The notes beneath the pieces were generated by a model. The model did no database searches, was not told where the DNA came from, and worked only from the letters and a program-made list of their open reading frames with translations. The position numbers and the translations under genes were made by a program. Positions 1 to 30,069 of a DNA stretch of 64,000 nt are shown here, in pieces. Position 1 is the first letter of the stretch; each line of letters opens with the position of its first letter. The stretch is from NCBI GenBank assembly GCA_016788425.1, contig JAEURQ010000003.1:279282-343281 (forward strand), read 5' to 3'. This DNA comes from Chthonomonas sp. (lineage in GTDB: Bacteria > Armatimonadota > Fimbriimonadia > Fimbriimonadales > Fimbriimonadaceae).

Positions 1-447
1 GTCGTGATTGGTCCCGACCAAAACGCCGGTCCCAACTACGGACGCCCGATCCGCTACACGCGGGTGAGCGGTCAGTCGGTAGGCCCGAACGAGTACAAGA
101 TCAACTACGTGGATCAACCCGAACCGGATTGGACGGCGATTGTCGGGGCGGTTCCGCCCGCGGCTTACCAAAGTGCGAATCCGATCTCGGCGATTCTGCA
201 AGCTCGGTACCGCGATGGCTATCTTGAGTTCCAATCGGACCCGAGTAAGCCGATCCCGCCCGGGAACATTTCGGTCAATTACCGATTCCAAATGAACGAG
301 ACGAATGACATTGTCGCGGTGGATTACGAGACCCAACAACTGATGGGCGTGAACATTACGATGCTGACGTTCGCTTCGCAAACTTCGCCGAACCCGCAAC
401 AGGTCACGCTGCGCGGCTCCGGCACGGTCAGGAACTTCCTGCGATAA
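1..447 (+). CDS. C-terminal part of a probable minor pilin-like protein (5' end outside window)
   Basis: The frame is open to the left edge, so the start lies outside the window and only about 148 residues are visible. No domain can be named with certainty. The visible part is beta-rich, and its last residues (VTLRGSGTVRNFLR) resemble the ends of PilW-type minor pilins, which commonly finish with a strand leading to a Val-x-x-Arg-Asn motif. The next gene starts 17 nt downstream and encodes a PilX-like protein, so a minor-pilin operon is the natural context. A segment near nt 220-294 (IPPGNISVNYRF) recurs in altered form in the two giant proteins downstream. The pilin assignment is inference. 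Confidence 0.5.
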   Translation, partial: VVIGPDQNAGPNYGRPIRYTRVSGQSVGPNEYKINYVDQPEPDWTAIVGAVPPAAYQSANPISAILQARYRDGYLEFQSDPSKPIPPGNISVNYRFQMNETNDIVAVDYETQQLMGVNITMLTFASQTSPNPQQVTLRGSGTVRNFLR

Positions 448-464
448 GGCTTTTAGAGAAAGAT

Positions 465-3400
465 ATGCAACCTTCGGTCCTTCGATCACGGCAACGCGGC
501 CAAGTCCTCATCATCGCCATTTTGGTGTTGGGAATCTTGCTTGGCATCGGCTTTCTCTTCTCGGCGCTCGTCGCCCGCAACATCAGCGATACGGGGAAGT
601 CTATTCGCCGTACGCTGGCGGGAGATTTGGCCGAATCGGGCATTCGCTACGCGCACTATCAGCTGCAGTACTCCGTGCTGGGCGCCGACTGGCGACCGAG
701 CGGCAGTCCGCTGGTGGCGCCGGGCGGCTTCAGCCGCGATCCGGACGCGATCTATCTGCGGGGTCCTTCGGGCATCCCGTTTAAGAACGACACCGACACG
801 CTGCTCGATCGCGGCGGTCCCGATGGTCTTGGCCCCTACACCCGTCTGGAGTACGAAAAGGGCCGATCGCTGATTCGTGTCCGCTATGCTCCCGCCGACT
901 TTGGCGGATTCCGCTCGGGCGCAGGCAATCTTCGCCTGCCGGGTAAAGCGAAGTCGTTTATTATCGTTGAAGCCGTGGGTCGCGCCGGAAAGCTGACGGC
1001 AACCGACCCGAGTCTGCAGAACCAAAAGGCCGTCAAGGTCGCGGGTTATGCGAATAACGCTGAGTTCCGCACGAGCCTCGGCGAAATGAAGACCCTGGAC
1101 GTGATCAACATCAACACGCGCAAGCTCATCGCCTTCGCGCAAACGGGGATCATTGATTACGCCCGCTTCATCACGAACAAATTTAACGTCAGCCGCGCGG
1201 CGGAACTGGGGTCGTTGACCTCGCCGACCGCCAGCGACAGCCTTGGTGTGACCTACACCGAAAGCGCGACTTTGAGCGTGCAAGTGGCGGTTCGCTCCAT
1301 TTTTGGCGGCGTCAGCACCGACAGCACGGGTACCGCGCTCATGGCCGGATCGGGTTCGATCCGCGTGAACGGCGACCTGACGTTGCACGGCGACAACCTG
1401 ATGTACGCCGACCCGCGCCTGGGTGATGGGCTGCTGGTCAGCGGCGATATTCGCTCGGCCAACGGCGCCTCACAGCTGACGTTGCGCACTCCGAATGGCG
1501 ACATTGCCGCCGGGGCCCTCGACTCGCGTAACAACGCATTCAGCACGCAAGGCGGATTGATCCGCGATGGCGTCAACGATAGTGACGGCGACGGTTACCC
1601 GCGAAGCACGGGCCGCACCGAGCCTCCCTCGCTTACGGCGACGGATCCGAACAGCAATTTGAGCCGCTATGTGGTGCTCACCCGCGACAGCGGTGCCCTC
1701 GGCCCCGATGGTCGCAACCTCGGTCGCCTCGGCTACGGTCGTGGTGTGTACGTGGACTCGGCCGAGCGCGGCGCAAGCCAATCGGAAACCGAGCGCGAAA
1801 CGACCGCCGGTCGAGATTCGGTGGTGCAAGAATGGCTGAACCCCTACAGCGTCAACCAAACCAACGGCGCTTGGTTCGGGCCGTACTACCGCCCGGTCGC
1901 GACGACGATTCAACTGACGAGCGACGGATTTCGAATTACGCGGCACGAACGCTCGGCGCGCCGATTCTGGCGCACGATTAACAACGCGGCCACCGCGCTT
2001 TCCTCAATTCGATACCGCACGCGCCGCATCGGGAACGTGACGTACATCCTCAACGAGGTGACGAACGGCAACTTGGTGAATCAAGCGATCACCGACGCGG
2101 TGTTCGTGCAGAACGGTCAAGAGTTTAACGGCGTGGTTTACGCCGAGGGCGACGTGCAAGTGCGCGGCGTCATCCCGACCGACGTCCAACTTTCCGTCGT
2201 CTCGATGGGTTCGATTTACGTCAATGGCAGCATCACCAAGGGCATCCGCACGGAAGCCGGCGCGACGCTGGGCCGACCTTCGACCTCGACGCTCATGCTG
2301 ATGGCCAAGGACTTCTGCGTGGTGAACACGACGATGTTCTTCGCGCCGTCGCTCTCGGAAACCGTGACCGCGCGCTCCGCGCAGTCGCTGGCTTCGACGC
2401 CGACGCCAGAAGCCGCCGTGATCGCACCGGATTCGGTGGATTACAACTACGAAACGGAGCTGCTGCTGAATCCGGTGACGGATGCCGCAGTTGGCTCGGT
2501 GGCCGGAAACCCCAGCACGTGGTCGCCGCTTGCGCTGCAGTATCGCGATGCCGTGAACAACAGCCGCATCCCGAGCAATCTCGTGCTTTCAGCCGCCGCC
2601 GATAACGACGGTCCGACGTACATGTCGCTGAATCTCACGCCGCTCACGGCGGGCGCGGTTCCGCAGACGTTCCCGTATCTGTTCTTGGGCGGCGTGGACG
2701 CGGTGACGAGCGAATTCATCAACCCCGAGGCACGACGCCACTTCCTGCCGAACGATCCGGTGGGCGTGCAAACGATGCTCGGAATCCCGGTTTATGCCTT
2801 GGCCGACGCCACGACGCAAACGTATCCGCGATTCGAAATCTCGTCGCACGAGCTGATCGCGACCGGCTCCACCTTCGTGGGCGGGCGCATTCAATCGCCC
2901 GGCGGATACATTCACGGCACATTCGAACTGGCCACGCAAGAAAGCACGCTCTTCGGAGTTCGCCTGAACGCGCTTGGCGGCAACGCTTCGCAAAACTTGG
3001 TCGCCGCTCGCATGGCGATCAACCCGGCGGATATTCGCATCGAAGCCTCGATGTACGCCGAAGAAGGTTCCTTCTTCGTGATTCCCGGCCCGGCGTTTAA
3101 CCTGAACGCGGCGGATACGCGGCTGGCGTTTAACACCGACGTGGCCAACGTGGGACGCCCGGCGGCGGAGCTTCGACGCTACCAGCAGTTCGGCGCGCGC
3201 CCCTTCGCTCCGTTCTATGGCGAACCGCTCAACGTGAAGGTGAGCATCGTCGGCTCAGTGTCGGAAAACATGCCGCAGCCCATCGCCGTGCAAGCCGCCT
3301 GGCAACGCAAGTGGGGTTGGATGCCGCGACAACTCGCGGGCACGCCGTTCTTCTTGCCAGCGCAACATGTGCCGGCCGGCCAAAACGTCAACAGCGGTGT

Positions 3401-3575
3401 CGCGCTGGACGCGATTGTGCCCAACTTGACCATTAGCCACGACCCGACCCTCGCTTTGGGTTCGGCGGATGGCGCGAATCCGGTGCGGGTAGACGCCGCG
3501 GGCAATAGCCTGCCGCCGATGCCGCGACTGCCGGTGTCCCCGACCCTGTCTTACTTTGGAGAGATCAACCCGTGA
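465..3575 (+). CDS. Giant PilX-like pilus assembly protein (1036 aa)
   Basis: The N-terminus has a short basic stretch, then RQRGQVLIIAILVLGILLG and a long hydrophobic helix. This is the layout of PilX N-terminal domain proteins, including the 'RG..L' prepilin-like context. The remaining ~990 residues are not pilin-like. They are rich in short strand repeats such as GSIRVNGDLTLHG, FNGVVYAEGDVQVRG and GSIYVNGSITKG, as seen in the beta-solenoid-like region of large PilX-family proteins. Typical PilX is about 150-200 aa, so this is about five times longer. It overlaps the next gene by 4 nt (GTGA), implying translational coupling. The likely role is a pilus-tip or cell-surface component. The N-terminal class is well supported; the function is inferred. 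Confidence 0.65.
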   Translation: MQPSVLRSRQRGQVLIIAILVLGILLGIGFLFSALVARNISDTGKSIRRTLAGDLAESGIRYAHYQLQYSVLGADWRPSGSPLVAPGGFSRDPDAIYLRGPSGIPFKNDTDTLLDRGGPDGLGPYTRLEYEKGRSLIRVRYAPADFGGFRSGAGNLRLPGKAKSFIIVEAVGRAGKLTATDPSLQNQKAVKVAGYANNAEFRTSLGEMKTLDVININTRKLIAFAQTGIIDYARFITNKFNVSRAAELGSLTSPTASDSLGVTYTESATLSVQVAVRSIFGGVSTDSTGTALMAGSGSIRVNGDLTLHGDNLMYADPRLGDGLLVSGDIRSANGASQLTLRTPNGDIAAGALDSRNNAFSTQGGLIRDGVNDSDGDGYPRSTGRTEPPSLTATDPNSNLSRYVVLTRDSGALGPDGRNLGRLGYGRGVYVDSAERGASQSETERETTAGRDSVVQEWLNPYSVNQTNGAWFGPYYRPVATTIQLTSDGFRITRHERSARRFWRTINNAATALSSIRYRTRRIGNVTYILNEVTNGNLVNQAITDAVFVQNGQEFNGVVYAEGDVQVRGVIPTDVQLSVVSMGSIYVNGSITKGIRTEAGATLGRPSTSTLMLMAKDFCVVNTTMFFAPSLSETVTARSAQSLASTPTPEAAVIAPDSVDYNYETELLLNPVTDAAVGSVAGNPSTWSPLALQYRDAVNNSRIPSNLVLSAAADNDGPTYMSLNLTPLTAGAVPQTFPYLFLGGVDAVTSEFINPEARRHFLPNDPVGVQTMLGIPVYALADATTQTYPRFEISSHELIATGSTFVGGRIQSPGGYIHGTFELATQESTLFGVRLNALGGNASQNLVAARMAINPADIRIEASMYAEEGSFFVIPGPAFNLNAADTRLAFNTDVANVGRPAAELRRYQQFGARPFAPFYGEPLNVKVSIVGSVSENMPQPIAVQAAWQRKWGWMPRQLAGTPFFLPAQHVPAGQNVNSGVALDAIVPNLTISHDPTLALGSADGANPVRVDAAGNSLPPMPRLPVSPTLSYFGEINP

Positions 3576-6500
3576 AGTTCATGAATTTGCGCACTGCAAC
3601 CTTGTCGCTTGCCTTTAGCCTGGCGGCGGGGGCGATCGCCCAGAACTCGGCGCTGACCAAAATTCAGGTTCGAGCCGGCGTGATCTATCCCGGGAGTCAA
3701 CTGACCGCGGGCGGATCTGCCTATTCGCCGATTCCGCACGTGTTCTTCGGGCTCGATCAGCGCAAGAATCTGCGTCCCGCCAACTGGGACGTGATGAATC
3801 CGCGCTCGCAGACGAACATGTCGGCGCTCATGCAGACGCAGTGGGCTTCGATTCACAGCAAATTCGGAATCGGCGGCGGGCTTCCGGCCGTCGGCTCGCG
3901 CGTGGCTAAGAGCAACGCCGCCTATTGGGCGGTTGGACTCTCTCGCTCGACCGTGGACGAGCTGAGTGAGTACGACATTCTCGCCCTCGGCGTCAGCGGC
4001 ACACTGAGCCTGAGCCCGGCGGACCGCGAAAAGCTGCGCCGCTACGTGGACCAAGGCGGCATTCTCTGGATCGCCCAAGAGAACGTTGGCGACCCCATCA
4101 GCTTCGATGTTGTGAATCCGGCGCCCGTGCCGCTCACATTCCTCGGCGCATTTTCGGGAACGGTGCAAGGCGACTTCACCAGCCCGCTGCTGACCACGCC
4201 GTACCCGGTCAGCCAAAACGAATTGCAAGCCCTCGGGAACGGTTCGAGCGCATTCCGCCCGGTGACCGCCGGTGATCTCGGCGCGAACGCGGCGAGTGTC
4301 AACGAGTGGATTCCGATGGAATCCGACCGAATTCGCCCCATCGTCGGCGCTTCGCCGACCAACCAAATGATCGGCCTGAGCCAAATCGGTGAAGGCTATG
4401 TCGTGGTGACCGCCTGCAACATCGGCGCGTTCATGAACCGCGGCTTTTCGGGCGGCGCGTTTACCAACAATTTGGGCTACCAATCGGCCACGCCGTCGGC
4501 GGACAACTACGCCGCGCTCGCAACCAAGATCGTGGTCAACATGATCAACCTGCGCAGCAGCTTTGCCGGTCAAGGCGGCGGCGCGCGGCAATCGGGTTCC
4601 ACGAGCGTCACGGTTTCAGCCCCGCCCATTCAGCGATTTAAGGCCAACGGCAGCGCGACGCAAAACGTGGCGATTTACAAAAACCGCATGGTCGTCATTT
4701 CGGGCACCACGCTTTCGGTGTACGACGCCAACCCCGGCCAAGATTTGGATAACGACGGCAACGTTGATGACGGCATTGCCGACGCTCAACAAGGCGGCAC
4801 CGACGTCATTTGGCGCGCAACCATCGGCGCAGGAACCTCCGGCCCGGTCTGCGGCGAAGCCACGGGCGCGGCTGACCCCGACCGCATCTTCTTTGTCGAC
4901 GCGACGGGCGCGTTGGTGTGCTACCCGCTCAATCCGGCGAACGTGAACACGCCGGTGCCGCTCGGCACCGCGAATGCGCCGGGTCAAAGCGATCCCGGCG
5001 GAACGCGACTGACACCGACGATTCACGACAATCTCGTTTTTATTACTGAGCGAACGACCATTCCGCAGGCCAATGGCCGCGTCTGGTCGGTTGATCTGGA
5101 AACCCTCACCGCGCCGACGCGCGGTTCGGGCTCGGCTGGAAAGGGCTACTTCGGTATCGATCGGGCGTTCCGCCTGACTTCGCCTTCGGGCCCGGCTACC
5201 GTCGGCCTGATTCCGATTGCCGATAACTCGGGTGGCGTGGACCGGGTGGCCTACGTGCCGACGGCCCCTTCCCCCGCGCTGCGCAAACCGGCGGGAATCG
5301 CCAGCCTTTGGGTGGGCACGCGCGGCGAAAAGCCGCCGACCATCATCGGGCTTCCCGGCGGTGGCACTGGATTTATCAACATCAACACCCGCGCCAGCGA
5401 GCAGGGCGTCCCCATTTATGCGGGCGGCGGTGCGCTCGGCGTAAAGATCACGCTCATCGAAATCTCGACCGGCCGCGTGTTTAATCAAGCGCAAACGGCC
5501 GCCGCGATTCGGATGAACAAGATCAACCTGGGCACTCCGGGCGTTATCCGGGCGGAAATCCTGGGCGGAACCACCCCCAGCGGGGCGGCGATTGTCATTG
5601 ATGGCGCGAGTAACGTCGTGCCCCCGACGACCTCCCTGCGCGTGGACTACACGATTGACTGGGGCGCGAGCAATACTGGCTCCGGCGAAGATGTGGGTCA
5701 ACCCGAAAACTACGTTCGTGGCGACGTACAGCTCGCCGACAGCACGTCGCTGAGTCGCCAGATTATGGGCGGCATCGCGATGGGCTCGAATGGAAACCTG
5801 TTTGTCGCGCTCGGCAGCAAGGACCCGGCGGTTCGCACCGGCGGTAGTTTCTATTGCATCACCGAAGAAGGTCGCGGCAGCTTCATTGTCCGATATCGTT
5901 GGGAGCTGCACGACAGCATCGGCGGCGGCGGCTCGGACCGCACGCTCACGATTCCGCTGGTCGGCGGCAACGAAACCCTGCGCTACGACGCCTCGGTGGT
6001 GGACCACGACGGCGTGCTCGACTTCCCGGGCCTCGGCGCGATCCTCGATCGCCCGCTCTCGAAAATGCAGTTTGAAACCGCGCCCGTGGTGCGTGGCGAC
6101 ACCGTGTTTATCGCCGCGACTGGCTTCAAGAAGGGCTTGCCCGCTTTCCCCGGAATGCCGCCGTACATGTCGGTCATCCTGGCGTTCAACGCCAACCCCG
6201 GTCCGGCCTCCATTACGCTAGACCTCGGCTCGCCGAGCAACCTGCAACTGGTTCAGCCCGATCTCGCTCGCACCGATTTCACGGCGCCGTTCGCGCAAAT
6301 GAACTCGCTCGCGCCGGGTCAGTTCTCGCAAGAGAAAATTGATCCGAACATCATCACGAGCCCCACGCGCATCGAAATCCGCAATTTCTCGACCACGACG
6401 CGCGGCAGCTTGGCGAACACCATCGCCTGCAACTTGCCGCTGTACGTCCGAACCGGATCGAGCCGCGACCTCAAGGTCGAGCCCGAAGCCAACGTGCAAG

Positions 6501-8308
6501 ACGGCGTCTATCTGCCCGGCAACGCCGGTGGCAGCTGGAACCCGCTGCGCTGGTACACCGTGCTCAACGGCATGTATACGCAAGCGAGCCCGGTCATCAC
6601 CGGCTCGACGATGTACACCGGCGGCCCGAGCTTCCTGCCCTCGATCATCATCAACCAAACCTTCCCGCCGACCGGCGTGGACGGCCTGATGTACGCGATG
6701 GACACGAAGGTGTCGCCGAGCGACCTGCTGGTGCCCGACGCGACCCGCAACGGCCACCTCGCTAACACGCCGGTCCGCACGTGGTATCGCTACCTGACGA
6801 CGGTCAAGGTGAATGGCGGCAACGTCAGCCAACCGCCGTACTTTAAGTGGCCGCAATTCTTTGGCATCACCGACTTCACCGACTTCGGTCAGCGCCTGTT
6901 GCAGGCCGTCATCCCGGGTGAAACCACGGTGCCGAGTCTGGCTGCCGGCGATGACCTCATCGCGGTGAACACGACTTCGGGCGTGTACGGATTCCGCCGA
7001 GGCGACTTCTTGATCGCCGACCAAGGCCGCATTATCCGCGCCGACAGCACGGGCAACGCGCTGTGGAGCTCGGAATTCACGGCTCAAGCCGGGGAAGAGC
7101 TTCCCGACGCGGGCCAAGTCAAAACGCGCAAGCTCAACCGTCCCTGGCGGGTCATCCCGGCCGGTGGCGGAAGCAACTGGGTCGTGGATAGCGGCGCCGA
7201 TCGGATCGTGCGGATGAGTTCCGCCGGGTTCGAAGAGCGTGTGATCTCCGCGATTCGCGTGGACCCGCGATTCCAGCCGCCCGGACTGGGCGACAACCCG
7301 CCGAGCCGCCTGCGCATGCCGCGCGACATGGTCACGTGGACGTCGGTAGTCGCGGCGGCGAATAACCCCTTCACGAACCCGCAGCCAGCCGAGTATTGGC
7401 GTCACTATCTGATCGCCGACCAAGGCAATTTCCGGGTCATCGAACTGGTGGACCGCTACGCCTACGATTCGTCAACGGGTCGGGTGGGCGCGGTCGTCAA
7501 CTATGTCGATCCGATTGAAAACGCGACCCTCGCCGGGCTCGGCGTGGTGTATAGCCACAGCAGCCCCGAACTGAGCGGCAAGCAGTACGCCTACAACAGC
7601 ATCGCTCGCCTGCGCAGTCAAGATGGCACGCGCATTCTGTATGCGTTCGGATTCGGCAACATCGAACCGGGCCTGAACAGTTTTGGCGCGACCACGGGCA
7701 GCACCAGCGCGCTCGACCTCAAGAGCGGCAACGGTGGCGTGGTTCTCTACGATCCGCAAGCCGCGACCGAAAACCTGATCACGCAGTACTCGCTGCAGGG
7801 CATCACGGGCCAACTCTGGAACCCGGTGACCAACAGCTGGGCGGCGGGCACCAACACCCCGCAAACGCGCAAGTTCGCCGGACTCACGTCGGTGACGTTG
7901 GGTTACGATGCGAGCGGCGCGATCCGCCTGATGGTCACGGACTCGACGGGCGTTTATGAAATGACGACCGCCGGAAACGTCACGTGGGCCTTGCCGACGA
8001 ACGTGTACCGCGCGATGCGACGCACGATCACTGACGTGGTCACCAGCGACAATCCGAACGGCTTCCGGCCCTCGTTTGCGCGCAGGCTCTCCAACAACGA
8101 CGTGCTCGTGGTGAACGCCTACCAAGGCGAGTTTTTCAACGACACTTCGAACAAGACCTTTGATGGCGAAGTCGTACTCTTGCGAGGCGACGACTTCGGG
8201 TGGAACTTCGACAACCTCGGCTTCGGTCGATACACGATCAAGTTCGCCCTTCCACCCCTCAACGGCGTCCGCGGACTCACGGTCCCGGTCTTCGCCGATC
8301 AACGTTAA
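3572..8308 (+). CDS. Giant secreted beta-propeller protein, PilY1-like position (1578 aa)
   Basis: The start is GTG, with GGAGAG 8 nt upstream, overlapping the previous stop; an in-frame ATG lies 9 nt later. A signal peptide ends near residue 24 (AAGAIA-QN). Residues ~130-180 (DILALGVSGTLSLSP, then a Gly-Gly-Ile-Leu-Trp-Ile strand) resemble the DUF4159/amidotransferase-like fold found in surface proteins. The middle contains PQQ/WD-like propeller blades. Residues ~1130-1300 contain NHL-like blades (WVVDSGADRIVRMSSAG; HYLIADQGNFRVIEL). It has no transmembrane helix after the signal peptide. Its place directly after a PilX-like gene matches PilY1, whose C-terminal half is a propeller. No PilY1-specific motif was recognised, so the equivalence is inference. 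Confidence 0.6.
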   Translation: MKFMNLRTATLSLAFSLAAGAIAQNSALTKIQVRAGVIYPGSQLTAGGSAYSPIPHVFFGLDQRKNLRPANWDVMNPRSQTNMSALMQTQWASIHSKFGIGGGLPAVGSRVAKSNAAYWAVGLSRSTVDELSEYDILALGVSGTLSLSPADREKLRRYVDQGGILWIAQENVGDPISFDVVNPAPVPLTFLGAFSGTVQGDFTSPLLTTPYPVSQNELQALGNGSSAFRPVTAGDLGANAASVNEWIPMESDRIRPIVGASPTNQMIGLSQIGEGYVVVTACNIGAFMNRGFSGGAFTNNLGYQSATPSADNYAALATKIVVNMINLRSSFAGQGGGARQSGSTSVTVSAPPIQRFKANGSATQNVAIYKNRMVVISGTTLSVYDANPGQDLDNDGNVDDGIADAQQGGTDVIWRATIGAGTSGPVCGEATGAADPDRIFFVDATGALVCYPLNPANVNTPVPLGTANAPGQSDPGGTRLTPTIHDNLVFITERTTIPQANGRVWSVDLETLTAPTRGSGSAGKGYFGIDRAFRLTSPSGPATVGLIPIADNSGGVDRVAYVPTAPSPALRKPAGIASLWVGTRGEKPPTIIGLPGGGTGFININTRASEQGVPIYAGGGALGVKITLIEISTGRVFNQAQTAAAIRMNKINLGTPGVIRAEILGGTTPSGAAIVIDGASNVVPPTTSLRVDYTIDWGASNTGSGEDVGQPENYVRGDVQLADSTSLSRQIMGGIAMGSNGNLFVALGSKDPAVRTGGSFYCITEEGRGSFIVRYRWELHDSIGGGGSDRTLTIPLVGGNETLRYDASVVDHDGVLDFPGLGAILDRPLSKMQFETAPVVRGDTVFIAATGFKKGLPAFPGMPPYMSVILAFNANPGPASITLDLGSPSNLQLVQPDLARTDFTAPFAQMNSLAPGQFSQEKIDPNIITSPTRIEIRNFSTTTRGSLANTIACNLPLYVRTGSSRDLKVEPEANVQDGVYLPGNAGGSWNPLRWYTVLNGMYTQASPVITGSTMYTGGPSFLPSIIINQTFPPTGVDGLMYAMDTKVSPSDLLVPDATRNGHLANTPVRTWYRYLTTVKVNGGNVSQPPYFKWPQFFGITDFTDFGQRLLQAVIPGETTVPSLAAGDDLIAVNTTSGVYGFRRGDFLIADQGRIIRADSTGNALWSSEFTAQAGEELPDAGQVKTRKLNRPWRVIPAGGGSNWVVDSGADRIVRMSSAGFEERVISAIRVDPRFQPPGLGDNPPSRLRMPRDMVTWTSVVAAANNPFTNPQPAEYWRHYLIADQGNFRVIELVDRYAYDSSTGRVGAVVNYVDPIENATLAGLGVVYSHSSPELSGKQYAYNSIARLRSQDGTRILYAFGFGNIEPGLNSFGATTGSTSALDLKSGNGGVVLYDPQAATENLITQYSLQGITGQLWNPVTNSWAAGTNTPQTRKFAGLTSVTLGYDASGAIRLMVTDSTGVYEMTTAGNVTWALPTNVYRAMRRTITDVVTSDNPNGFRPSFARRLSNNDVLVVNAYQGEFFNDTSNKTFDGEVVLLRGDDFGWNFDNLGFGRYTIKFALPPLNGVRGLTVPVFADQR

Positions 8309-8323
8309 ACCAATTAGCTTCCG

Positions 8324-11300
8324 ATGAAAGTAGCGAAATCGATGTTCAAAAGCGGACTGGCCCTGCTCGGGCTGGTCTGCGTGGCCGCAAGTCAAGCCCA
8401 GGTGTTCGATCATCTGGGGGGTACGAACCAACGCCAAGGTCGCAATCCCGCGGCTACGGCGGCGGATAACCCCGGCTTGATGAAGCTTCGTTGGGGCGAC
8501 CCGACGCTGGCCGCAAAGCGCGTGCTCGATAACTGGGACACCGCGCCCCTGGGAACGAAGCCGTTTACCAACTTTATCGCCGCCAATTGGGGCGATCCGC
8601 TCGACGCCAAGGGCGCCTCGTATGTTGACCTTTCCAACGGCACGGAAGCACCGTATCGCTACGCGTTTGCGACCGCATCGGCCCTTACGAACGACTACTG
8701 GACGCCCGCCAACCCGGCGCTGCTCAAGGTGTTCACCTGGAACTTCCCGCAGTACCAAAACGGGGATGAACTGGAGTTGTTCGTCAACATTCCGGTCGGT
8801 CCGACCGACATCAACAACGCGGTCCTGACCGAAGACCTCCGGTTCCAGGCCCGCTATCAGGTTTATCAAATCGAGGGCGTCGACAATCCCGATGGCACCA
8901 CCGATCCGATCTACGTCAAGATCGACACGTTTAACGTGCTCGGCGGCACGGTCCGCCTTGGTCTCGATCGGGGCCCCAACGCGACGTGGACGGCCAATCT
9001 GAACGGCGGCGTCAAGATCACGCTGCTCAACACAATCCCGCGTAACTCAAGCGGCACGCTGGAAGACCCTGAAGAAAACAATCCGGCGGGCACCATCGGC
9101 AAGCTCGTTTATGCCGACTCCGCTGAAGCGCAACTCGTGTTGCCGGGCAATGCCGGCACCATCACCGCGCAGCCGGTGGTCTATCAGCGAACCTCGGGCA
9201 ACCCGACGGACTACACGGTGGCCGCGGGTCGCAACGAAGCCGTTTCCGGCCAAGTCGGCAGCGAAGTGTTCAGCTCGAACATGGCGATTGTCACCGGTTA
9301 CGCTCACAACGGACAAAAAATTACTGCTGCCGAGCCTGGTCTCGGTGGTTCGGTGCGCCGCAACATCCTTTGGTCCTGGCCGGTGCGCCGTCCGTTCGCC
9401 AACTCCTCGGCGGAACTCAACACCTTTAACACCGCGAAGTCCACGTGGATGGAGACCAATGGTCGCTATCAGCAGGTCCTGACGCAAGACAACCAAAGCA
9501 GTGGCGTCACGCCGACCGGCGGTTGGAATGTCGCGACCCTGCCCAACAACAAGGGCGACGACGCGCTGACCTTCCCGGCGGTGGTCGGGGCGGCGACGCA
9601 GCAGATTTCGTTCGCCAAGAACGGCCTCAACGGCCAGTACGTGATTCAAGTGTGGTCTCCGGGCGGCACCTTCGCCAACCGCGTGATCGTGCAGGTCAAG
9701 TCCCTGGGCTTCACCATCGCTTCGGGCGAAGTGGACCTCAATGGTGCGACCGGATGGCGCGCTGTGCGGGCCGCTGGCTTTAGCAACTTCGAAGCGTTCG
9801 GCAACTTGGAACTGGTCATCACCAATGAGACCAATGATGCCGGTAGCGCGGGCGCTGATGTGGTGGCGGACCAAGTCCGGTTCATTCGCACGGCCGACCT
9901 GAGCATGACCAGCACGCCGGTGGCGGTGCAAATGCCGATCAACGTCGGTGGCTCGCTTGTCAACCGAACGGTGCTGTTTGTCGCCCTTCAGAACGGACGC
10001 ATTTATGCGCTTGATGGCGATGGCGACCCCCTCACGGGCACGACGGAAGTTTTCTGGGCCTATCCCAGCGAGCGAGCGGTTGACCCCAACCACATTGCCA
10101 CCGAAGATGGCGTGGATGGCATCGCCGAAATGCCGGCGCAGTTCGATCTCACGTCCGCCGCATTCGAGACCGTGACCTACGGCCCTGGCGATCAACGCAC
10201 GGTGCTGGTGATCGGAAGCACGAACGGCAAGGTTTACTGCCTCGACGCACAAGGTCGTGGCGACCAAACGCCGACGCTTTACGGAACCACGCGCCGCTAT
10301 TGGAGCTGGCCGGATGATTATCCCGCCGCGCCGAGCACGGAAAATCATGGCGCCATCGTTGGCTCGGTGAGCTGGTCCAACATGGGCGGCGTGCAAAAGT
10401 GGATCGTCCCGACGAGTTCGGGCCGCGTTTTCGCCCTCAACGCCGTGGGGAACGACACCACCAAGACGACGTCCGTGGCTTGGCAATACCCGGCTCCCGC
10501 CGCCACCCCTCGTGGCCCGGTCGTGATGTCGGCGCTCAGCCATCTGAACCACATCGTGTTCGGATCGGGCGATGCCATGATTTCGCTGGACGCCGCTTCG
10601 GGCGCAGAAAACTGGGTGAAAACCAACGGTGCGACGGGTGCGTTCCTGCCGTTCGGCACCTCCACCCCGGCGCTGATGCGACAAATTTCTGACCCGCTCT
10701 TGCCGCACGACACGCTGTTCTTTGGCAATGGCGACGGCTACATTTATGCGGTTGATCTGGCCAACGGGAACACCGATTGGGCGGAAAACTCGATCGGTGC
10801 GGTCGCCTCGGCTCCGCTGACCGCGATGCACCGCCGCGGATTCCTGACGACCGGCGCGCTTTCCCCGACTCCGGAACCGATTGTGCTCGTGCCGACCAAC
10901 GCTAACAGCTATGTGGCCCTGCGCGCGGTGAATTCGATCACCGGCAACCGCGGTTCGGTTGCCTGGACGGGACGCCTCAAAGGCTCGCCCACGCCGGCCG
11001 CCACTGGCGCCCGGGCAATCGGTGCGAATCCGAACCTGATTGACGCGCGGATGGATGACGAGTTTGGCTACATGTTTGGCGCCGACTCGGACGGAAACCT
11101 GCTGGCCTACGGCTACGATCCGGACTTCGGTCTCGATGATCAGTGGCTGCCCGATGGCGCGCCCCCCGTGGACGACGGCATTGACGACAACGACCCCAAT
11201 TCGGTGGATGTCTCGAACATCGCCAAGGGAGCCAAGGTCGCGTTTATTCTGGAAAACGATCTTTACATGCTCACTCGCCTCAGCCGCGAGGGAACCCTGA

Positions 11301-14300
11301 AGCAAAGCGACGTGGACGCCGCCGTGACGAACGGGGCCGCGATTACGCGCCGCCACTTTGAATTCGGCGAACGCCTGAACTTCATCGCCTACGACATGCC
11401 GGATCCGGCCACGCTCGGCTCGGGCGCGTCGTACTCGGTCGAGATTCAGATCAGCACGCCGGGCGGCTCGTCGCAACGACGAAGCGAGTTCCCGCGCATC
11501 ATCACCGACGCGGCCAGTCCGCTGCGCTCCCGCTTCATCACGGGTCAAATCGCGATCGTGGGCACCGGCAACAATGCCGTGGCTCCCGGCCCGACCACCG
11601 TGAAGTGCTCGATCGTCGGCTACGCCAGTTCGAGCGGTGGACAGGCGCAATCGACCTCGGAGATTCCGAAGGCAAACATTTCGTTTGGCGGTCAGATCAC
11701 GACGAACAACCCGATGGGGATTCGCATGCTCTCGACGCAAGCCGGAAACGTGAACCTCGCCATTTCGGGAACTCCGCTCGAAGCTTTTGCCGATGGCAAC
11801 GGAAACCAAGACCTGGACAACAACACGGGCGCGGTCATCGCGAACCAAGTGCTGCGCCAAGGTTTTGCGCCGAGTCTCGCCGAGGCCACAGGTGTCGCGC
11901 CGGAAGTCGCGCACGGCAACCAAGCCCAGTCGCGCATCTTCCTTTACGACCGAAGCTGCATGTCAACCCTGCTGGGTCTCGACCGTGGCCTGCCGAACAT
12001 TCGCATGGCCAACCGCGACCTGTTGATTCAGGGCGCCAACGGCTCGATTCCGGCGAAGGCACTCGGTACGGATTATCCGCTGTTCGAGCAACCGATCTCG
12101 CGCCCGAACGGCGTGAACATCAGCCTCGACTACCCCGACATGAAGCGATCGCTGATCGAAGTGGTCAAGGAAGTCTCGGGCAACGCGGAAAATCCGCTGT
12201 TCTCGCCAGTCTCGCTGAATCCGCCCGCCTACACCGTTGCGGACTACCAACAGTACAAGTCGGACGGCGCGACCTACAACGCAGGTTTGCCGCGCACGAC
12301 GCAAGCGACGCCGTTTGACTACCGGTTGAACACGCCGCGATTCCAGCCGCCGAGCAACTACCTGGGCACGCAATATGCCTACGTGGATGCTCAACGCACG
12401 ACGCTCTCGTTCGTGCCGGGTGCCACGACGGGCTACGCTTACCGCGAGTTCACCGCCAACGCGGTGGTCGGCGGTGACGAACGCCTGAGCGTGGTGCAAG
12501 AAACGATTGACCTCGGCACCCTGATGGGTGGCGCCGGATTCGCTCCGGGCGTTCCGTTCGCGGCTCCGGGAATCAACTTCCAAGCGCCGGTCTTCAACCC
12601 GAGCGGCAATCCGTTCTTCCAACGCTTCGGCGTGATGAACGAGGGCAACGTGAACTTGCTGAATGTGCGCGTGGCCAAGGCGGTCGAAAATGACTTTGAG
12701 CTGTCGAAGATCTCGGGCCTCGGCCTGCAGCCTTCGGCGTGGCTCAACATCTCTCGCCACCTGCACTCGGATATTGATCCGGAGTACGCGCCGGCCGGCA
12801 CTAGCAATCGCGTCGCGATTCAAAAGGCTCGCCCGGGCGATCTGGAACCCACTCGCTTGCGTGTGAATCCGATTCGCCGCGCGAATCCGGCGATCGGCGC
12901 AACCCAGGTTCCGCTGCTTAACACAGCGGTGTTCCCGGCCAACGAAGATCCGAAGATTGCCGTCTCGATTCCGATCGGGGCTCCGATGGGCAACTACACC
13001 GTGAACGTGGTGGTTTTTGAAGATCGCGACGTGGTGAACGCATTCAACTCGCCCGTGCTCAATCTCGAGGCAAGTTCGACCTACGAACCCTACGCCGATC
13101 CGTTTGTGCTCAAGCTGAACGTCGGCGAAACCCGACTGACCAACGCTCGCCCGAACAAGGCGATCAACATGATCGATACCGATCTGGGTCTGACGGGCAA
13201 GGAATCGCATCGTTGGGGCAACCTCCAGCCGAACATGTATCGCGATGGCCTCGGTCACGTCTACATGGCGTTTGCGAGTGAGCGACGAGGCGGCACGAAT
13301 GTCGCCGACTGGAACGCTCGCCTGAAGACTCCGGCTGATACGACGACCCCGCAGTACCGCATTTATATTGCGTCGCTGGCCGGTGGTGTCCCGTTCGCTC
13401 CGGGCGTCGATCCGTCGCCGCTCAGCGACCTCGACCGGTTCAGCCCGGCGATCGCGAGTCGATGGTTCTTCCAAGAACTGAATCCGTTCCCGATCTTTGC
13501 CAGCCCCGAAACCTTGTTTGGCGTCGGCGCGGGCGAGACCGTGCAACCGGGTTCGGTGCAGTTCGGTTCGCCGACGTTCCCGACCAGCGGTGGATTTGCC
13601 TCGCGAATTTCGCCGGGCAACACGGGCCGCAACTCGACGATTGCGCCGTACATGGCCTTCATCGCCGAATTCAATAAGGTGGATGGCACGGGCCAAGTCA
13701 CTCGCGAAAGCCGCATCTTCCTGTCGCGTCTCAGCGGCGGGCCGGGATCGGTCACGATGAGCGCGCCGGTGATGCTCAGCACGACCGCGGCGGTCATTGA
13801 CCCGTCGGCAAAGATTGGTCGCCCGTCGCTGATTCAAGACGAAAACGGCGTCGCGACGTTGTTCTTCACGGTCACTCGTGGCGGACAAAGCCAACTGATG
13901 TTCGCGACCTACAACGGCACCAACTGGGTGGTTCGACCGGGCTTCGGCGGTAACGCCGTCGTGCAGTCGTTCAACTTCGGCAGCGCCTTTGAGCTGATCT
14001 CGAACGCGAGCTCGTACCTGCGACCGGCCGGTGGCCTTGATATCGTGATGACGGGACGTGTCCGCGGCCGCAGTGGCTCGGAAGTCTTCCTGGGTCGCAT
14101 GTCGCCCACCAACTCGGCACAACCGAGCTTCTCGGGCGGCGGCTGGATGAACAAGTGGAACACGCTCGTGTCGCCGCTGAACAAGGACGCGCGAACCGGC
14201 ATCTACTGGGGCCTGGGCGTGCAACTCGACACGCGCGATTGGAACCAAGATTCCGCGGGAACGCTGGCCGATCCGACGGTGGCCGACTTCATTGACGTCT

Positions 14301-15118
14301 TCCGACGCACGAATGCCGGCTACGTCTCGGTGATCAAGCCCGGCACGCGCAAGCTCAGCGAACGCACGAATAACGTGGTCGCCGAATGTATGCTGGGCGG
14401 CACGATAACGATCAATATGACTAGTGGGGCCGTGCAGTTCGATGGGGCGTTGATCCCGGCGAACATGCAACTCTCCATGCGCTACCGCGCGGAATTCGTC
14501 CGCATCAGCGGTGGTCAGGGCGCCAACTACAAGGGCGTGAGCATGGTCTTTGACGACCGCATGGTGGGCGACACGCTCAACTGGCGCGATGCCGGCGGGA
14601 ATCCGCTGGGCACGGTGGTGCCGCGTAACGATCGGTTCGTGTTTACGTACCTCAAGGAAGACCAAGAGTCGCGCCTCGGCCCGCAGGCCATCATGCGCAC
14701 GGCTCGCTTTGGGATTGTCCTGAGCCAACGTCTCGCAACGGATGCCAACGGCAACTATCAAATCACGGCGATCTCGGGCAACCTCGGTCCGTTCCAAGTG
14801 GATCCGGTGAACAACCGCATCTACTTCCAGTCGGAAGACGAAGCGCGATCGGTGCAGATTAGCTACGTTTCGACGGGCGGAAACACGACCGATCGGCAAA
14901 CGGTTGGCGTGCTCACCGAAACCGCGGAAACCACGCTGCCGATGACGCCCGGCGTCACGAGTCTGCAGGTGGCACTGGACGCGCCGAGTACGGCCTTCAA
15001 CAACAACGTGTCGGCTCGCCGCGCGAACCTGTTGTGGCTGATCTGGTCGAGCACGCAGCAAGGTGTCCCGGACATCTACATGGGCACCGTCGCGCCGTTC
15101 TTCTCGTCGCGACCTTAA
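8324..15118 (+). CDS. Giant secreted PQQ-type beta-propeller protein (2264 aa)
   Basis: A signal peptide of about 25 residues (ending SQAQ) is followed by a very long exported chain. Residues ~545-870 carry recognisable PQQ-like blades: FVALQNGRIYALDGDGDP, VIGSTNGKVYCLDAQG and FFGNGDGYIYAVDLANG. The C-terminal half has further beta-rich modules, including AVQFDGALIPANMQLSMRYR near nt 14440, related to segments in the two upstream genes. There is no sorting signal or membrane anchor at the C-terminus. The 15-nt gap to the previous gene indicates one operon, closed by a terminator 18 nt after the stop. Its size, export signal and neighbours suggest a surface or pilus-associated adhesin. No clear Shine-Dalgarno precedes the ATG. 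Confidence 0.6.
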   Translation: MKVAKSMFKSGLALLGLVCVAASQAQVFDHLGGTNQRQGRNPAATAADNPGLMKLRWGDPTLAAKRVLDNWDTAPLGTKPFTNFIAANWGDPLDAKGASYVDLSNGTEAPYRYAFATASALTNDYWTPANPALLKVFTWNFPQYQNGDELELFVNIPVGPTDINNAVLTEDLRFQARYQVYQIEGVDNPDGTTDPIYVKIDTFNVLGGTVRLGLDRGPNATWTANLNGGVKITLLNTIPRNSSGTLEDPEENNPAGTIGKLVYADSAEAQLVLPGNAGTITAQPVVYQRTSGNPTDYTVAAGRNEAVSGQVGSEVFSSNMAIVTGYAHNGQKITAAEPGLGGSVRRNILWSWPVRRPFANSSAELNTFNTAKSTWMETNGRYQQVLTQDNQSSGVTPTGGWNVATLPNNKGDDALTFPAVVGAATQQISFAKNGLNGQYVIQVWSPGGTFANRVIVQVKSLGFTIASGEVDLNGATGWRAVRAAGFSNFEAFGNLELVITNETNDAGSAGADVVADQVRFIRTADLSMTSTPVAVQMPINVGGSLVNRTVLFVALQNGRIYALDGDGDPLTGTTEVFWAYPSERAVDPNHIATEDGVDGIAEMPAQFDLTSAAFETVTYGPGDQRTVLVIGSTNGKVYCLDAQGRGDQTPTLYGTTRRYWSWPDDYPAAPSTENHGAIVGSVSWSNMGGVQKWIVPTSSGRVFALNAVGNDTTKTTSVAWQYPAPAATPRGPVVMSALSHLNHIVFGSGDAMISLDAASGAENWVKTNGATGAFLPFGTSTPALMRQISDPLLPHDTLFFGNGDGYIYAVDLANGNTDWAENSIGAVASAPLTAMHRRGFLTTGALSPTPEPIVLVPTNANSYVALRAVNSITGNRGSVAWTGRLKGSPTPAATGARAIGANPNLIDARMDDEFGYMFGADSDGNLLAYGYDPDFGLDDQWLPDGAPPVDDGIDDNDPNSVDVSNIAKGAKVAFILENDLYMLTRLSREGTLKQSDVDAAVTNGAAITRRHFEFGERLNFIAYDMPDPATLGSGASYSVEIQISTPGGSSQRRSEFPRIITDAASPLRSRFITGQIAIVGTGNNAVAPGPTTVKCSIVGYASSSGGQAQSTSEIPKANISFGGQITTNNPMGIRMLSTQAGNVNLAISGTPLEAFADGNGNQDLDNNTGAVIANQVLRQGFAPSLAEATGVAPEVAHGNQAQSRIFLYDRSCMSTLLGLDRGLPNIRMANRDLLIQGANGSIPAKALGTDYPLFEQPISRPNGVNISLDYPDMKRSLIEVVKEVSGNAENPLFSPVSLNPPAYTVADYQQYKSDGATYNAGLPRTTQATPFDYRLNTPRFQPPSNYLGTQYAYVDAQRTTLSFVPGATTGYAYREFTANAVVGGDERLSVVQETIDLGTLMGGAGFAPGVPFAAPGINFQAPVFNPSGNPFFQRFGVMNEGNVNLLNVRVAKAVENDFELSKISGLGLQPSAWLNISRHLHSDIDPEYAPAGTSNRVAIQKARPGDLEPTRLRVNPIRRANPAIGATQVPLLNTAVFPANEDPKIAVSIPIGAPMGNYTVNVVVFEDRDVVNAFNSPVLNLEASSTYEPYADPFVLKLNVGETRLTNARPNKAINMIDTDLGLTGKESHRWGNLQPNMYRDGLGHVYMAFASERRGGTNVADWNARLKTPADTTTPQYRIYIASLAGGVPFAPGVDPSPLSDLDRFSPAIASRWFFQELNPFPIFASPETLFGVGAGETVQPGSVQFGSPTFPTSGGFASRISPGNTGRNSTIAPYMAFIAEFNKVDGTGQVTRESRIFLSRLSGGPGSVTMSAPVMLSTTAAVIDPSAKIGRPSLIQDENGVATLFFTVTRGGQSQLMFATYNGTNWVVRPGFGGNAVVQSFNFGSAFELISNASSYLRPAGGLDIVMTGRVRGRSGSEVFLGRMSPTNSAQPSFSGGGWMNKWNTLVSPLNKDARTGIYWGLGVQLDTRDWNQDSAGTLADPTVADFIDVFRRTNAGYVSVIKPGTRKLSERTNNVVAECMLGGTITINMTSGAVQFDGALIPANMQLSMRYRAEFVRISGGQGANYKGVSMVFDDRMVGDTLNWRDAGGNPLGTVVPRNDRFVFTYLKEDQESRLGPQAIMRTARFGIVLSQRLATDANGNYQITAISGNLGPFQVDPVNNRIYFQSEDEARSVQISYVSTGGNTTDRQTVGVLTETAETTLPMTPGVTSLQVALDAPSTAFNNNVSARRANLLWLIWSSTQQGVPDIYMGTVAPFFSSRP

Positions 15119-15135
15119 GGAAACCCAAGACCGAA

Positions 15136-15166
15136 GGGCGAGCATGGAAAATGCTCGCCCTTTTTT
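15136..15166 (+). terminator. Rho-independent terminator after the giant-protein operon
   Basis: A perfect 10-bp stem (GGGCGAGCAT / ATGCTCGCCC) with a 5-nt loop is followed by six T residues. It closes the operon that ends at 15118 and isolates it from the pilM operon. Confidence 0.92.
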
Positions 15167-15259
15167 CGTTTCGGCTGTGCCTTATTTGGGTTTGCGACCA
15201 TCATAGAACTAAAGCGGAACTTTGCCTCGTCATGGTAAGGTACGCGGTGGGTTACGCCC

Positions 15260-15289
15260 TTGCACGGGTTGTGCTCTCCGGGATAACAT
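15260..15289 (+). promoter_or_regulatory. Candidate sigma-70 promoter of the pilM operon
   Basis: TTGCAC at 15260-15265 and TAACAT at 15284-15289 are separated by 18 nt and lie about 40 nt upstream of the pilM ATG. Both hexamers deviate from consensus. The only independent support is the position, between a terminator and the first gene of an operon. Confidence 0.35.
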
Positions 15290-15326
15290 AGGGGACACCC
15301 AAACCAGGGAAGAATTTGGACGAAGT

Positions 15327-16667
15327 ATGGCGAAAAAGCTAACGAGCGTTTTAGGGATCGATATCGGCAGTCAGCAGATTAAGATCGCCGAAATCAAGAT
15401 GCAAGGACGCGAACCAGCGGTGACTGCGCTGGGGATCGCCCGTACGCCCGAAGGGGCGGTTGACCATACCGGTGTCTACGACGTGGATAACGTCGCCCAG
15501 GTGGTCAAAGACCTGGCGCAGGCTTCGGGAGCCTCGGTCAACCAAGTGGTGGTGACCGTCGCCGGGCAAGCATCCGTTTTGGTTCGCACGGTGGAGGCTC
15601 CGCGCCTCGAAGGCACCGAGCTAAAGAACCACATGGAATGGGAAATTACGCGCAACGTGCCGTTCGCGGAAACCACCATCCAATCCGACTTCAAGCCGAT
15701 ACCGGGCGGCGATCCGGCTAGCCAAAACATGGACGTGATTATGGCGATCTCGCCCCAGTCCGCTATTGACACGCTGGTGGACATCGTCAAGAAGTCCGGC
15801 AAGAATCTCGCCGTCATCGACGTGGAGCCGCTAGGCCTCGCCCGAGCGTTCAAGGCCACCTACGGCGCGGATTACGATAACCAAACCGTCTGCGTGGTGG
15901 ACTTCGGCCATAAGACGACGGCCATTAATATTTACCGCGACGGCTACCTGATGCTTCCGCGCCAAGTGCCAATGGGCGGCGAAAACTTTACGCAGGCCAT
16001 TGCCGCCAACATGGGCGTCGGCATGGACGAAGCCGAGCACATGAAGACCACGCGCGCCCGAGTCCCGGAAAACGCTGGTCAACAAAACGCGTTTGGTCAA
16101 ACTGGTGGTTTCGAACCGTTCAATCCGTTCGCGGATGCGGCGGCGTTCAATCCTGGTCTAACGATCAACGTCCCCGCGGCCGATCCTGGTCCCGGTGCGG
16201 CCGGAACCGGTGGCAGCCTGTACGATTACGCGGCGCCAACTCCGGGGGCCGACGACACTCCTGCTGATTTCAACGCGTACGCCGCGGCGGACGCGACTCC
16301 TGAGCCGGAACCCGAGCCCGCGATGGCCCCGGTGCCGGCGGCTCCCCCGCAAAACGACGAGGAAACGCAGCTGTACCAAGCCTTTGCGCAAGTGCTCGAC
16401 GAGTTCGTCAGCGAGCTGCGCCGATCGGTGGATTACTACCGCTCGAAGGGTGGCGAAGTTTCGGCCGTCCTGCTCGTGGGTGGCGCGTCGAAGTTGCCTG
16501 GACTTACCGAGCATCTTCAAGCCTCGCTCGGCATTCCAACCTCGCTGCTCGATCCGTCGCGCGGCCTCCCGATTAATGCCAAGCGCCTGGAAGCGGGTCT
16601 GCTGGAAAATAATCGCCAAGATTTCGCCATTGCCATCGGCAACGGCCTGCACATTGCCTTTGATTGA
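15327..16667 (+). CDS. pilM: PilM-like actin-fold type IV pilus assembly protein
   Basis: PilM is the cytoplasmic actin-like protein that binds the PilN N-terminus in the inner-membrane platform. The N-terminus has the family signature VLGIDIGSQQIKIAEIK, and the C-terminus has the nucleotide-fold motif VLLVGGASKLPGL near residue 380. The start is placed at ATG 15327, where the family signature begins; the longer upstream frame has no PilM similarity. At 446 aa it is about 100 residues longer than usual. The excess is a Pro/Ala/Gly/Asp-rich, probably disordered insertion at residues ~245-343 inside the fold. It is the first gene of pilMNOPQ and is followed by pilN after 3 nt. Confidence 0.92.
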   Translation: MAKKLTSVLGIDIGSQQIKIAEIKMQGREPAVTALGIARTPEGAVDHTGVYDVDNVAQVVKDLAQASGASVNQVVVTVAGQASVLVRTVEAPRLEGTELKNHMEWEITRNVPFAETTIQSDFKPIPGGDPASQNMDVIMAISPQSAIDTLVDIVKKSGKNLAVIDVEPLGLARAFKATYGADYDNQTVCVVDFGHKTTAINIYRDGYLMLPRQVPMGGENFTQAIAANMGVGMDEAEHMKTTRARVPENAGQQNAFGQTGGFEPFNPFADAAAFNPGLTINVPAADPGPGAAGTGGSLYDYAAPTPGADDTPADFNAYAAADATPEPEPEPAMAPVPAAPPQNDEETQLYQAFAQVLDEFVSELRRSVDYYRSKGGEVSAVLLVGGASKLPGLTEHLQASLGIPTSLLDPSRGLPINAKRLEAGLLENNRQDFAIAIGNGLHIAFD

Positions 16668-19256: not shown

Positions 19257-19313
19257 TCAATTTTGGCGTAACTGCCGTTGACCAGAAACATTCGACTTAT
19301 TGAGGTTGAAACT

Positions 19314-19961
19314 ATGAATAACCGACTAAAATTGGCGCTTGCCGCTTTGATGCTGTTCGGAGCCATGATCTTCACTCCGGTGAAGGCCATCGCTCAGGGC
19401 ACCGACCCGCGAGACCAGGTAATCCCCTCGATTAGCCTGGACGAAGCCGACGTGCGCGACGCGCTGCGCGAGCTGTTCCGACAAGTTCAGGTGGACTATT
19501 CGGTTGCTCCCGAAGTGCAAGGCACCGTAACGATTAAACTGACGAACCAAACGTTCGAGACCGTGCTGCGCAACATCCTCAATCAAGTGGATTCGACGTA
19601 CCGCGTGGAAGCTGGCGTTTACGTCATCGTGAAGAAGTCGGACGGCGGCGGCCCGGTGGGTCCGGAAACGACTCCGGAAACCCCCCAAGCTCAAGAAAAT
19701 CAGATTGTTCGCATTCCCATTCGCTCGGCTGACCCCGAACTGATCATTCGCTTGATCAACGGCACGCTTAGCCCGGGTTCGGAAGTCGAGTTCAGTTCGC
19801 GGCCTTCTAACAGTGGCTTCGGCGGCGGCGGTGGTGGCTTTGGCGGCGGCGGTGGCGGCCTCGGTGGCGGTCTCGGCGGCGGTGGCGGTGGCCTCGGCGG
19901 CGGATTCGGCGGCGGCGGTGGCGGCTTCGGCGGCGGCGGCGGCAGTCTGGGCGGACGATAA
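19314..19961 (+). CDS. STN (secretin N0-like) domain protein with poly-glycine tail
   Basis: The ATG at 19314 has GAGG 8 nt upstream and begins a signal peptide that ends near residue 28 (KAIA-QG). Residues ~38-105 form a secretin/TonB short N-terminal (STN) domain: ISLDEADVRDALRELFRQ and, later, VYVIVKK. A short N1-like strand region follows (QIVRIPIRSADPELIIRLI). The last ~50 residues are almost only glycine with Phe, Leu and Ser. There is no secretin pore domain, so this is not a truncated copy of the next gene but a separate periplasmic partner with the same first domain. It probably interacts with the secretin or with peptidoglycan. The domain call is firm; the role is inference. Confidence 0.75.
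   Translation: MNNRLKLALAALMLFGAMIFTPVKAIAQGTDPRDQVIPSISLDEADVRDALRELFRQVQVDYSVAPEVQGTVTIKLTNQTFETVLRNILNQVDSTYRVEAGVYVIVKKSDGGGPVGPETTPETPQAQENQIVRIPIRSADPELIIRLINGTLSPGSEVEFSSRPSNSGFGGGGGGFGGGGGGLGGGLGGGGGGLGGGFGGGGGGFGGGGGSLGGR
19815..19956 (+). repeat. Glycine-codon low-complexity tract (STN protein tail)
   Basis: About 140 nt consist of repeated GGCGGCGGTGG-type units encoding Gly runs punctuated by Phe or Leu. It is coding low complexity, not an intergenic repeat. A similar tract lies in the next gene, so slippage or recombination between the two is possible. Confidence 0.85.
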
Positions 19962-19994
19962 TTCGCCAGCATTTTTGCAAGGATATTGAATAGT

Positions 19995-30033: not shown

Positions 30034-30069
30034 GTGCAGACACCTGCCCGGACTGCCGATAACAACACT

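Follow-up and report, generated by a model that had tools for sequence, protein, structure and literature searches.

In the established priming model of type IVa pilus assembly, the pilus starts from a first layer of four minor pilins plus a propeller protein, which is carried by the topmost pilin, PilX; the complex is pushed out as major pilin is inserted beneath it, and it stays at the tip as an adhesin (PMC7541494). The pilin that lacks glutamate at position 5 of the mature protein (Glu5) is PilX in Myxococcus, Pseudomonas and Neisseria and GspK in type II systems (PMC7541494). A single conserved propeller domain (PF05567) has been taken as the defining feature of PilY1. Calcium motif 1 of PilY1, Dx[DN]xDGxxD (PMC13190605), sits in a loop between propeller strands (PMC8833165); disruption of the motif abolishes the pili of P. 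aeruginosa, as summarised in PMC13190605, and affects PilY1.1 of M. xanthus (PMC8833165). The PilX equivalent of Thermus, ComZ, has a large inserted beta-solenoid and binds DNA (PMC6561018). Here we describe a cluster of giant minor pilins and exported propeller proteins at the start of a 64,000-nucleotide stretch (the window; G000:C3:279282-343281) from the 2.67-Mb genome of a member of the Fimbriimonadaceae (Armatimonadota), and we propose with good confidence that it encodes the priming and tip complex of the host's type IVa pilus. A literature search for Armatimonadota together with PilY1 returned a glacier-microbiome metagenome paper and no description of such a complex; the pilus genes listed in the Fimbriimonas genome paper do not include PilY1.

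Results

The cluster runs along one strand in the order PilD (the prepilin peptidase), FimU-type prepilin (275 amino acids (aa)), PilV-type prepilin (620 aa), PilW-type prepilin (749 aa), PilX-type prepilin (1036 aa) and two propeller proteins that we call Y1 (1578 aa) and B2 (2264 aa). The window opens inside the PilW-type gene, and we verified the end of this gene and the three complete frames that follow it on the plus strand (Table 1). Spacing from PilW to PilX, Y1 and B2 is 17 nucleotides (nt), a 4-nt overlap and 15 nt. A first-pass annotation of positions 1-15118 had taken the fragment at the edge for the end of a minor pilin, and it is the C terminus of the 749-aa prepilin. The same annotation had named missing prepilins in the preceding DNA as evidence that would count against it; a peptidase and three class III prepilins, the last of them ending in the window, lie directly upstream of the PilX-type gene. 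The peptidase (340 aa) matches Peptidase_A24 and A24_N (A24_N_bact 3e-30). The FimU-, PilV- and PilW-type prepilins have the N-terminal signals ...RRAFTLIELLVVIAIIAIL, ...AASLVEILVVIVVFLVGILG and ...AFTLIELITVMAITTILL, respectively, and the PilW-type protein (L022:13198-15447) begins MRLKRAFTLIELITVMAI. Across the phylum, Glu5 was present in every scorable FimU (73/73), PilV (82/82) and PilW (82/82) protein. All 24 of 24 PilV-type members matched type_IV_pilV (TIGR02523; best 7.9e-9), this genome's copy at 22.3 bits, below the curated cut-off of 52.2. The PilW-type prepilin matches generic prepilin models, and the PilW and FimU labels were given because of gene order and prepilin signal.

The PilX-type protein carries the prepilin signal ...RGQVLIIAILVLGILLG. 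Glu5 was found in none of 94 PilX-type proteins, in which position +5 is I, V, L, M, A or F; signal, Glu5 and position support its placement in the PilX/GspK class. We modelled the protein with AlphaFold2 (AF2) from an alignment of 54 phylum sequences. The model (predicted local distance difference test (pLDDT) 87.4, predicted TM-score (pTM) 0.88) consists of a single 56-residue helix (14-69) followed by about 950 mostly beta residues, with many short strands that are compatible with a beta-solenoid. The helix, the missing Glu5 and the gene's position bear out the PilX-type N terminus described in the first-pass annotation, but the PilX_N model (PF14341) does not match, so we regard the protein as PilX-like and, by strict test, not as a PF14341 member.

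Y1 and B2 both begin with a Sec-type signal sequence (by inspection). A DUF4159-like domain (PF13709) was found in 15 of 17 Y1 homologues (best 9.3e-7). Modelled by AF2, residues 345-1544 (pLDDT 86.7, pTM 0.83) matched the tandem WD40 protein Elp2 and PQQ dehydrogenases in Foldseek searches, and the second propeller matched NHL domains (TRIM71, TRIM2); the Y1 sequence profile independently matched NHL-like designed propellers (Pizza6). Global TM-scores were low because the alignments cover two domains, and we therefore limit the claim to the presence of tandem propellers. Residues D391-D399 of Y1 (DLDNDGNVD) are an exact instance of PilY1 motif 1. The exact motif recurs in 72 of 86 Y1 homologues, always at 22-30% of the length (0.2 expected from shuffles), and is rare in the neighbouring proteins, where families of 70-100 sequences contain it in 1 to 14 members. 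The loop is nearly invariant in 56 homologues, its acidic residues ranking with the best-conserved positions of the whole propeller alignment, and the AF2 model places it between two strands of the first propeller. Because of this motif we predict that Y1 is regulated by calcium. Calcium-like DxNxDG/DxDxDG loops are also present in this genome's FimU-type (P0005 residue 138), PilW-type (P0007 residue 232) and PilX-type (P0002 residue 372) proteins; across the phylum they are less frequent (35/79, 35/86 and 19/100, respectively).

In B2, a PQQ/BamB-type propeller was found in 19 of 19 homologues, with BamB/PQQ profile matches in the PDB, and Golvesin_C (PF25275) in 13 of 19 (best 1e-35). The first-pass annotation was right in reading the 1578- and 2264-aa products as exported propeller proteins: signal sequences are present in both, PQQ blades in the larger, and NHL-like blades, by profile and structure, in the smaller. 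B2 shows weaker conservation than Y1; a few phylum loci lack it or have it in a displaced position. It is possibly part of the tip, by analogy, and is the least certain element of the complex that we propose.

We next consider conservation in a genome collection whose relatives of the host are Armatimonadota by name, mostly Fimbriimonadaceae. Y1 homologues occur in 59 of 61 relatives, most of them full-length, which argues that the frames of the cluster are not chance ORFs (open reading frames). Y1 was detected in 119 of 151 phylum genomes (98 of 116 high-quality ones), the PilX-type protein in 143 and PilM in 147 of the 151. Synteny was compared at 20 loci of the host's order and at 20 spread over divergent families of the phylum, in assemblies of varying quality. 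The order FimU-PilV-PilW-PilX-Y1 is kept in 20/20 and 20/20 of these, as far as the fetched stretches reach; one locus (G096/L174) has an additional FimU-type gene between PilV and PilW. B2 follows Y1 in all 20 loci of the order and in most divergent ones, and PilD lies upstream in many where the stretch reaches. A PilX-profile search yielded 80 loci; judged by profile limits, 70 of 76 scorable PilX-Y1 pairs are contiguous, and a start with the 4-nt overlap is available in 45. These loci belong to Armatimonadota or its classes or orders, except for a few untitled 'bacterium' metagenome-assembled genomes and one 'archaeon' contig. A search for related loci with Y1 alone found none. Lengths across the phylum are 537-935 aa for PilV, 499-831 aa for PilW and 746-1138 aa for PilX. 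The sizes that the first-pass annotation had placed far outside the known range are therefore normal here, and 'giant' describes the phylum, not this genome. Taken together, the cluster is a probable phylum-wide variant of the type IV pilus priming and tip complex, with three giant minor pilins and one or two propeller proteins.

Three kinds of irregular locus were seen in these searches. The 'archaeon' contig (L103; JADZEW010000021.1, 'Methanoregulaceae archaeon isolate SJ84') has cluster coordinates and profile limits identical to those of a Fimbriimonadaceae locus (L102) and is apparently mis-binned. Y1 is split into two or three pieces by frameshifts or a stop at L096:13173-17913, L133:13237-18021 and L139:12609-17250. 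We considered phase variation and rejected it; G5 tracts are all that is found close to the frameshifts, which makes a sequencing or assembly error the likelier cause. Apparent PilX-Y1 fusions in L033 and L034 (2496 and 2433 aa) are an ORF-calling artefact, as tblastn recovered intact PilX and Y1 in different frames.

The rest of a type IVa machine is present in the host genome: PilM, a secretin, an A24 peptidase and five PilT-family ATPases, each over cut-off. Downstream of B2 come a terminator-like hairpin, pilM, three short genes, a secretin N-terminal (STN) protein and a PilQ-type secretin; the three short genes are identified as pilN, pilO and pilP by position only. The hairpin lies between B2 and pilM, and pilMNOPQ may therefore be transcribed separately from the tip cluster. 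The single operon just upstream of pilMNOPQ that had been proposed in the first pass agrees with the tight spacing of the cluster, but has this hairpin before pilM. The stem (four prepilins, Glu5 pattern, PilM, secretin and PilT) is conserved, while the head is greatly enlarged.

Table 1 Positions of the main features in the window.
Feature	Positions	Strand	Remarks
PilW-type prepilin, C-terminal 148 residues of 749	1..447	+	N_methyl PF07963 4.9e-5, above cut-off; Glu5 present; gene start L022:13198
PilX/GspK-position giant minor pilin, 1036 aa	465..3575	+	mature N terminus after G12, Ile at +5, no Glu5; AF2 pLDDT 87.4
Codons of the 56-residue N-terminal pilin-type helix, residues 14-69	504..671	+	DSSP on AF2 model
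Y1, 1578-aa exported PilY1-like protein	3572..8308	+	GTG start, 4-nt overlap with PilX-type stop; alternative ATG 3581
Y1 N-terminal DUF4159-like domain, about residues 24-330	3641..4561	+	Pfam match 127-173; PF13709 below curated cut-off in this copy
Y1 tandem propellers, residues 345-1544	4604..8203	+	first PQQ-like, second NHL-like (about 1122-1537); AF2 and Foldseek
Y1 EF-hand-like calcium loop, residues 391-404 (DLDNDGNVDDGIAD)	4742..4783	+	matches PilY1 motif 1 Dx[DN]xDGxxD
B2, 2264-aa exported protein, PQQ propeller and golvesin-C-like domain	8324..15118	+	C-terminal half without known domain
B2 Golvesin_C-like domain, residues 389-521	9488..9886	+	PF25275; below cut-off in this copy
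B2 PQQ_2 propeller match, residues 690-820	10391..10783	+	PF13360 31.8 bits against cut-off 27.6
Intrinsic-terminator-like hairpin 3' of B2	15133..15163	+	13 pairs, T-rich tail; 1 found, 0.5 expected
pilM	15222..16667	+	TIGR01175 4.8e-55, over cut-off; PF11104
STN-domain protein, PilQ N-terminal part	19278..19961	+	PF07660 over cut-off
PilQ-type secretin	19986..21662	+	PF00263 6.5e-35; TIGR02515 7e-35, below curated cut-off

Genes for shikimate kinase and 3-dehydroquinate synthase (21720-23227) follow immediately 3' of the secretin; an aroK-aroB neighbourhood also adjoins proteobacterial pilMNOPQ loci. Further along, an HDOD-domain protein is followed by a CheB-type receiver/methylesterase (29185-31116), and the pair may belong to a chemosensory system close to the pilus genes. 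Immediately 5' of the prepilin peptidase is a 566-aa ORF (L022:7683-9383) without a Pfam match. Two minus-strand frames, 9047-11923 (958 aa) and 11963-15145 (1060 aa), are antisense to the B2 gene; they show no sign of coding and probably reflect frame openness from base composition.

Discussion

Several results weigh against a tip complex of the PilX/PilY1 kind. PF05567 (T4P_PilY1) had no match at E<=1 in Y1, in 17 homologues or in the host genome, and matched 0 of 151 phylum genomes in a run made without a positive control; the 50 best fold matches of Y1 did not include PilY1 (3HX6). PF14341 had no match at the locus (elsewhere in the genome only at E>0.4), and the fold search with the PilX-type model returned nothing at E<=0.001. 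Profile searches of the PilX-type protein against the PDB gave no pilin, GspK or ComZ, its beta part was assigned by neither profile nor fold, and PF14341 and single-sequence PDB searches gave nothing useful; weak jelly-roll, carbohydrate-binding module and beta-helix matches were set aside and not used as functional evidence. Among the profiles suggested in the first pass, PQQ (PF13360) and NHL-like blades were recovered, but PilX_N and PilY1 were not. The head, at about 0.4-0.7 MDa as estimated from lengths, would have to pass the secretin. Last, in a 1.5-Mb relative of the same family (G029; L183, G029:C19:84001-104000), Y1 and B2 are not detectable and the four minor pilins are kept (FimU 279, PilV 318, PilW 538 and PilX 685 aa), together with PilT. 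Y1 is therefore not obligatory for the pilin set, and the pilin core can exist alone. PilV, PilW and PilX are shortened in this genome, so the large modules shrank along with the loss of Y1 (in this one case), a natural reduction that supports a view of the enlarged pilins as stems bearing modules.

Y1 fails the domain test that defines the PilY1 family, and for this reason we do not file it there; from its motif and its place it appears to work like PilY1 without being a demonstrated member of that family. What stands of the earlier PilX/PilY1 analogy is the adjacency of PilX and Y1 across the phylum and the exact calcium motif, but not the PilY1 domain of the 1578-aa protein.

The prepilins might instead form the GspH-I-J-K-type tip of a type II-like pseudopilus, with Y1 and B2 as substrates that are released and not displayed. 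PilX and GspK are equivalent, both lacking Glu5 (PMC7541494; our Glu5 count), the analogy with type II secretion likens PilY1 itself to a substrate (PMC7541494), 2 of 29 PilX-type members match the GspK model weakly (best 0.0087, below cut-off), and G029 retains pilins without Y1 or B2. We nevertheless consider a pseudopilus unlikely: the cluster adjoins pilM and a PilQ-type secretin in a genome with PilT-family retraction ATPases, the PilV-type proteins score better with type_IV_pilV than with GspI, and the calcium motif of Y1 is that of PilY1. Less probable again is the tip of a DNA-uptake pilus as in Thermus, with Y1 and B2 assisting uptake. ComZ provides the precedent (PMC6561018), the short strands of the PilX-type model would suit a beta-solenoid, weak FapA and MinC_C (beta-solenoid) matches occur in single homologues, and the weak fold matches include tailspike beta-helix structures; however, ComZ itself is absent from the profile and fold search results, and the calcium-loop propeller pattern is PilY1-like. 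A reading of Y1 and B2 as ordinary propeller proteins of the cell surface that only happen to lie in a minor-pilin operon is the least probable of all: a few loci do lack B2 or have it displaced, but Y1 adjoins the PilX-type gene in 20 divergent phylum loci, with overlapping start codons, and carries the PilY1 motif.

We therefore retain the type IVa priming and tip complex and propose a mechanism for it by analogy with Pseudomonas and Myxococcus. PilD would cleave the FimU-, PilV-, PilW- and PilX-type prepilins, whose N-terminal helices would assemble in the inner membrane, with the Glu5-less PilX-type pilin capping the minor-pilin stack. Sec-exported Y1 would dock onto this pilin in the periplasm, and major pilin polymerising beneath the complex would drive it outward through PilQ. 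The extra modules of PilV, PilW and PilX would then form, together with the Y1 propellers, an oversized adhesive head. Calcium in the Y1 loop may stabilise this head or gate extension and retraction, as in PilY1. The ligand, most likely a surface or a polysaccharide, would be faced by the DUF4159-like domain of Y1, which is variable, and possibly by B2 (PQQ propeller and golvesin-like domain). Retraction by PilT would draw the head back, and the cell would be moved or anchored. We infer tip localisation, adhesion, ligands and the role of B2 from the described systems, and the fold types suggest an adhesive or glycan-binding role.

A bolder proposal, which we put forward tentatively and with somewhat less than even confidence, is that the Armatimonadota have replaced PilY1 with an unrelated tandem-propeller adhesin that has a DUF4159-like head and that has arrived by convergence at the calcium loop and the PilX slot; with the enlarged pilins and B2 this would be the largest type IV pilus tip known. 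The phylum keeps the tip gene order and the PilY1 calcium motif, yet the PilY1 slot holds a protein that current profiles miss. This would show that the conserved elements are the slot, the calcium switch and the contact with PilX, rather than the domain. The combination also offers a signature by which to search for tip adhesins in phyla apparently devoid of PilY1, and it raises the testable physical question of how a secretin can let out a head of several hundred kDa.

Comparison with known systems

Members of the PilV-, PilW- and PilX-type families weakly match models of the Verru_Chthon cassette (TIGR02596, TIGR02598-TIGR02600) and the cyanobacterial pseudopilin HpsC. These matches cover the N-terminal region and are below curated cut-offs in the copies studied here. 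We rejected membership of the Verru_Chthon cassette, as the N-terminal matches are weak and full-length PilX-type proteins from a divergent subset have none.

The likeness to modular pilins (PilB and PilC of Streptococcus sanguinis, and an InterPro survey) lies in large functional modules carried on a pilin stem and presented at the tip (PMC8179133). The extreme of that survey is 860 residues (PMC8179133); here, three consecutive minor pilins are enlarged, the enlargement is conserved in the phylum and the modules have no Pfam match. ComZ of Thermus thermophilus is likewise a GspK-like tip pilin enlarged by a large beta-rich insertion, for which the tip has been argued to be the only possible place (PMC6561018). 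It differs in that it has 554 residues and binds DNA, whereas the PilX-type protein is about twice as long and has no sequence match or significant fold match to it.

The closest likeness is to the type IVa tip complex of Myxococcus and Pseudomonas, which shares the gene set and order, a PilX without Glu5, a Sec-exported propeller protein beside PilX and the EF-hand-like Dx[DN]xDGxxD loop between propeller strands (PMC7541494, PMC8833165, PMC13190605). Y1 departs from PilY1 in lacking PF05567, in having a DUF4159-like N terminus in place of vWA or DUF4114 and in having two tandem propellers. The complex as a whole departs from the type IVa tip in its PilV-, PilW- and PilX-type proteins of 499-1138 aa and in the usual presence of a second exported propeller protein, B2. 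Set beside the canonical fimU-pilV-pilW-pilX-pilY1 tip clusters, the locus has the same gene order, with most of its proteins strongly enlarged.

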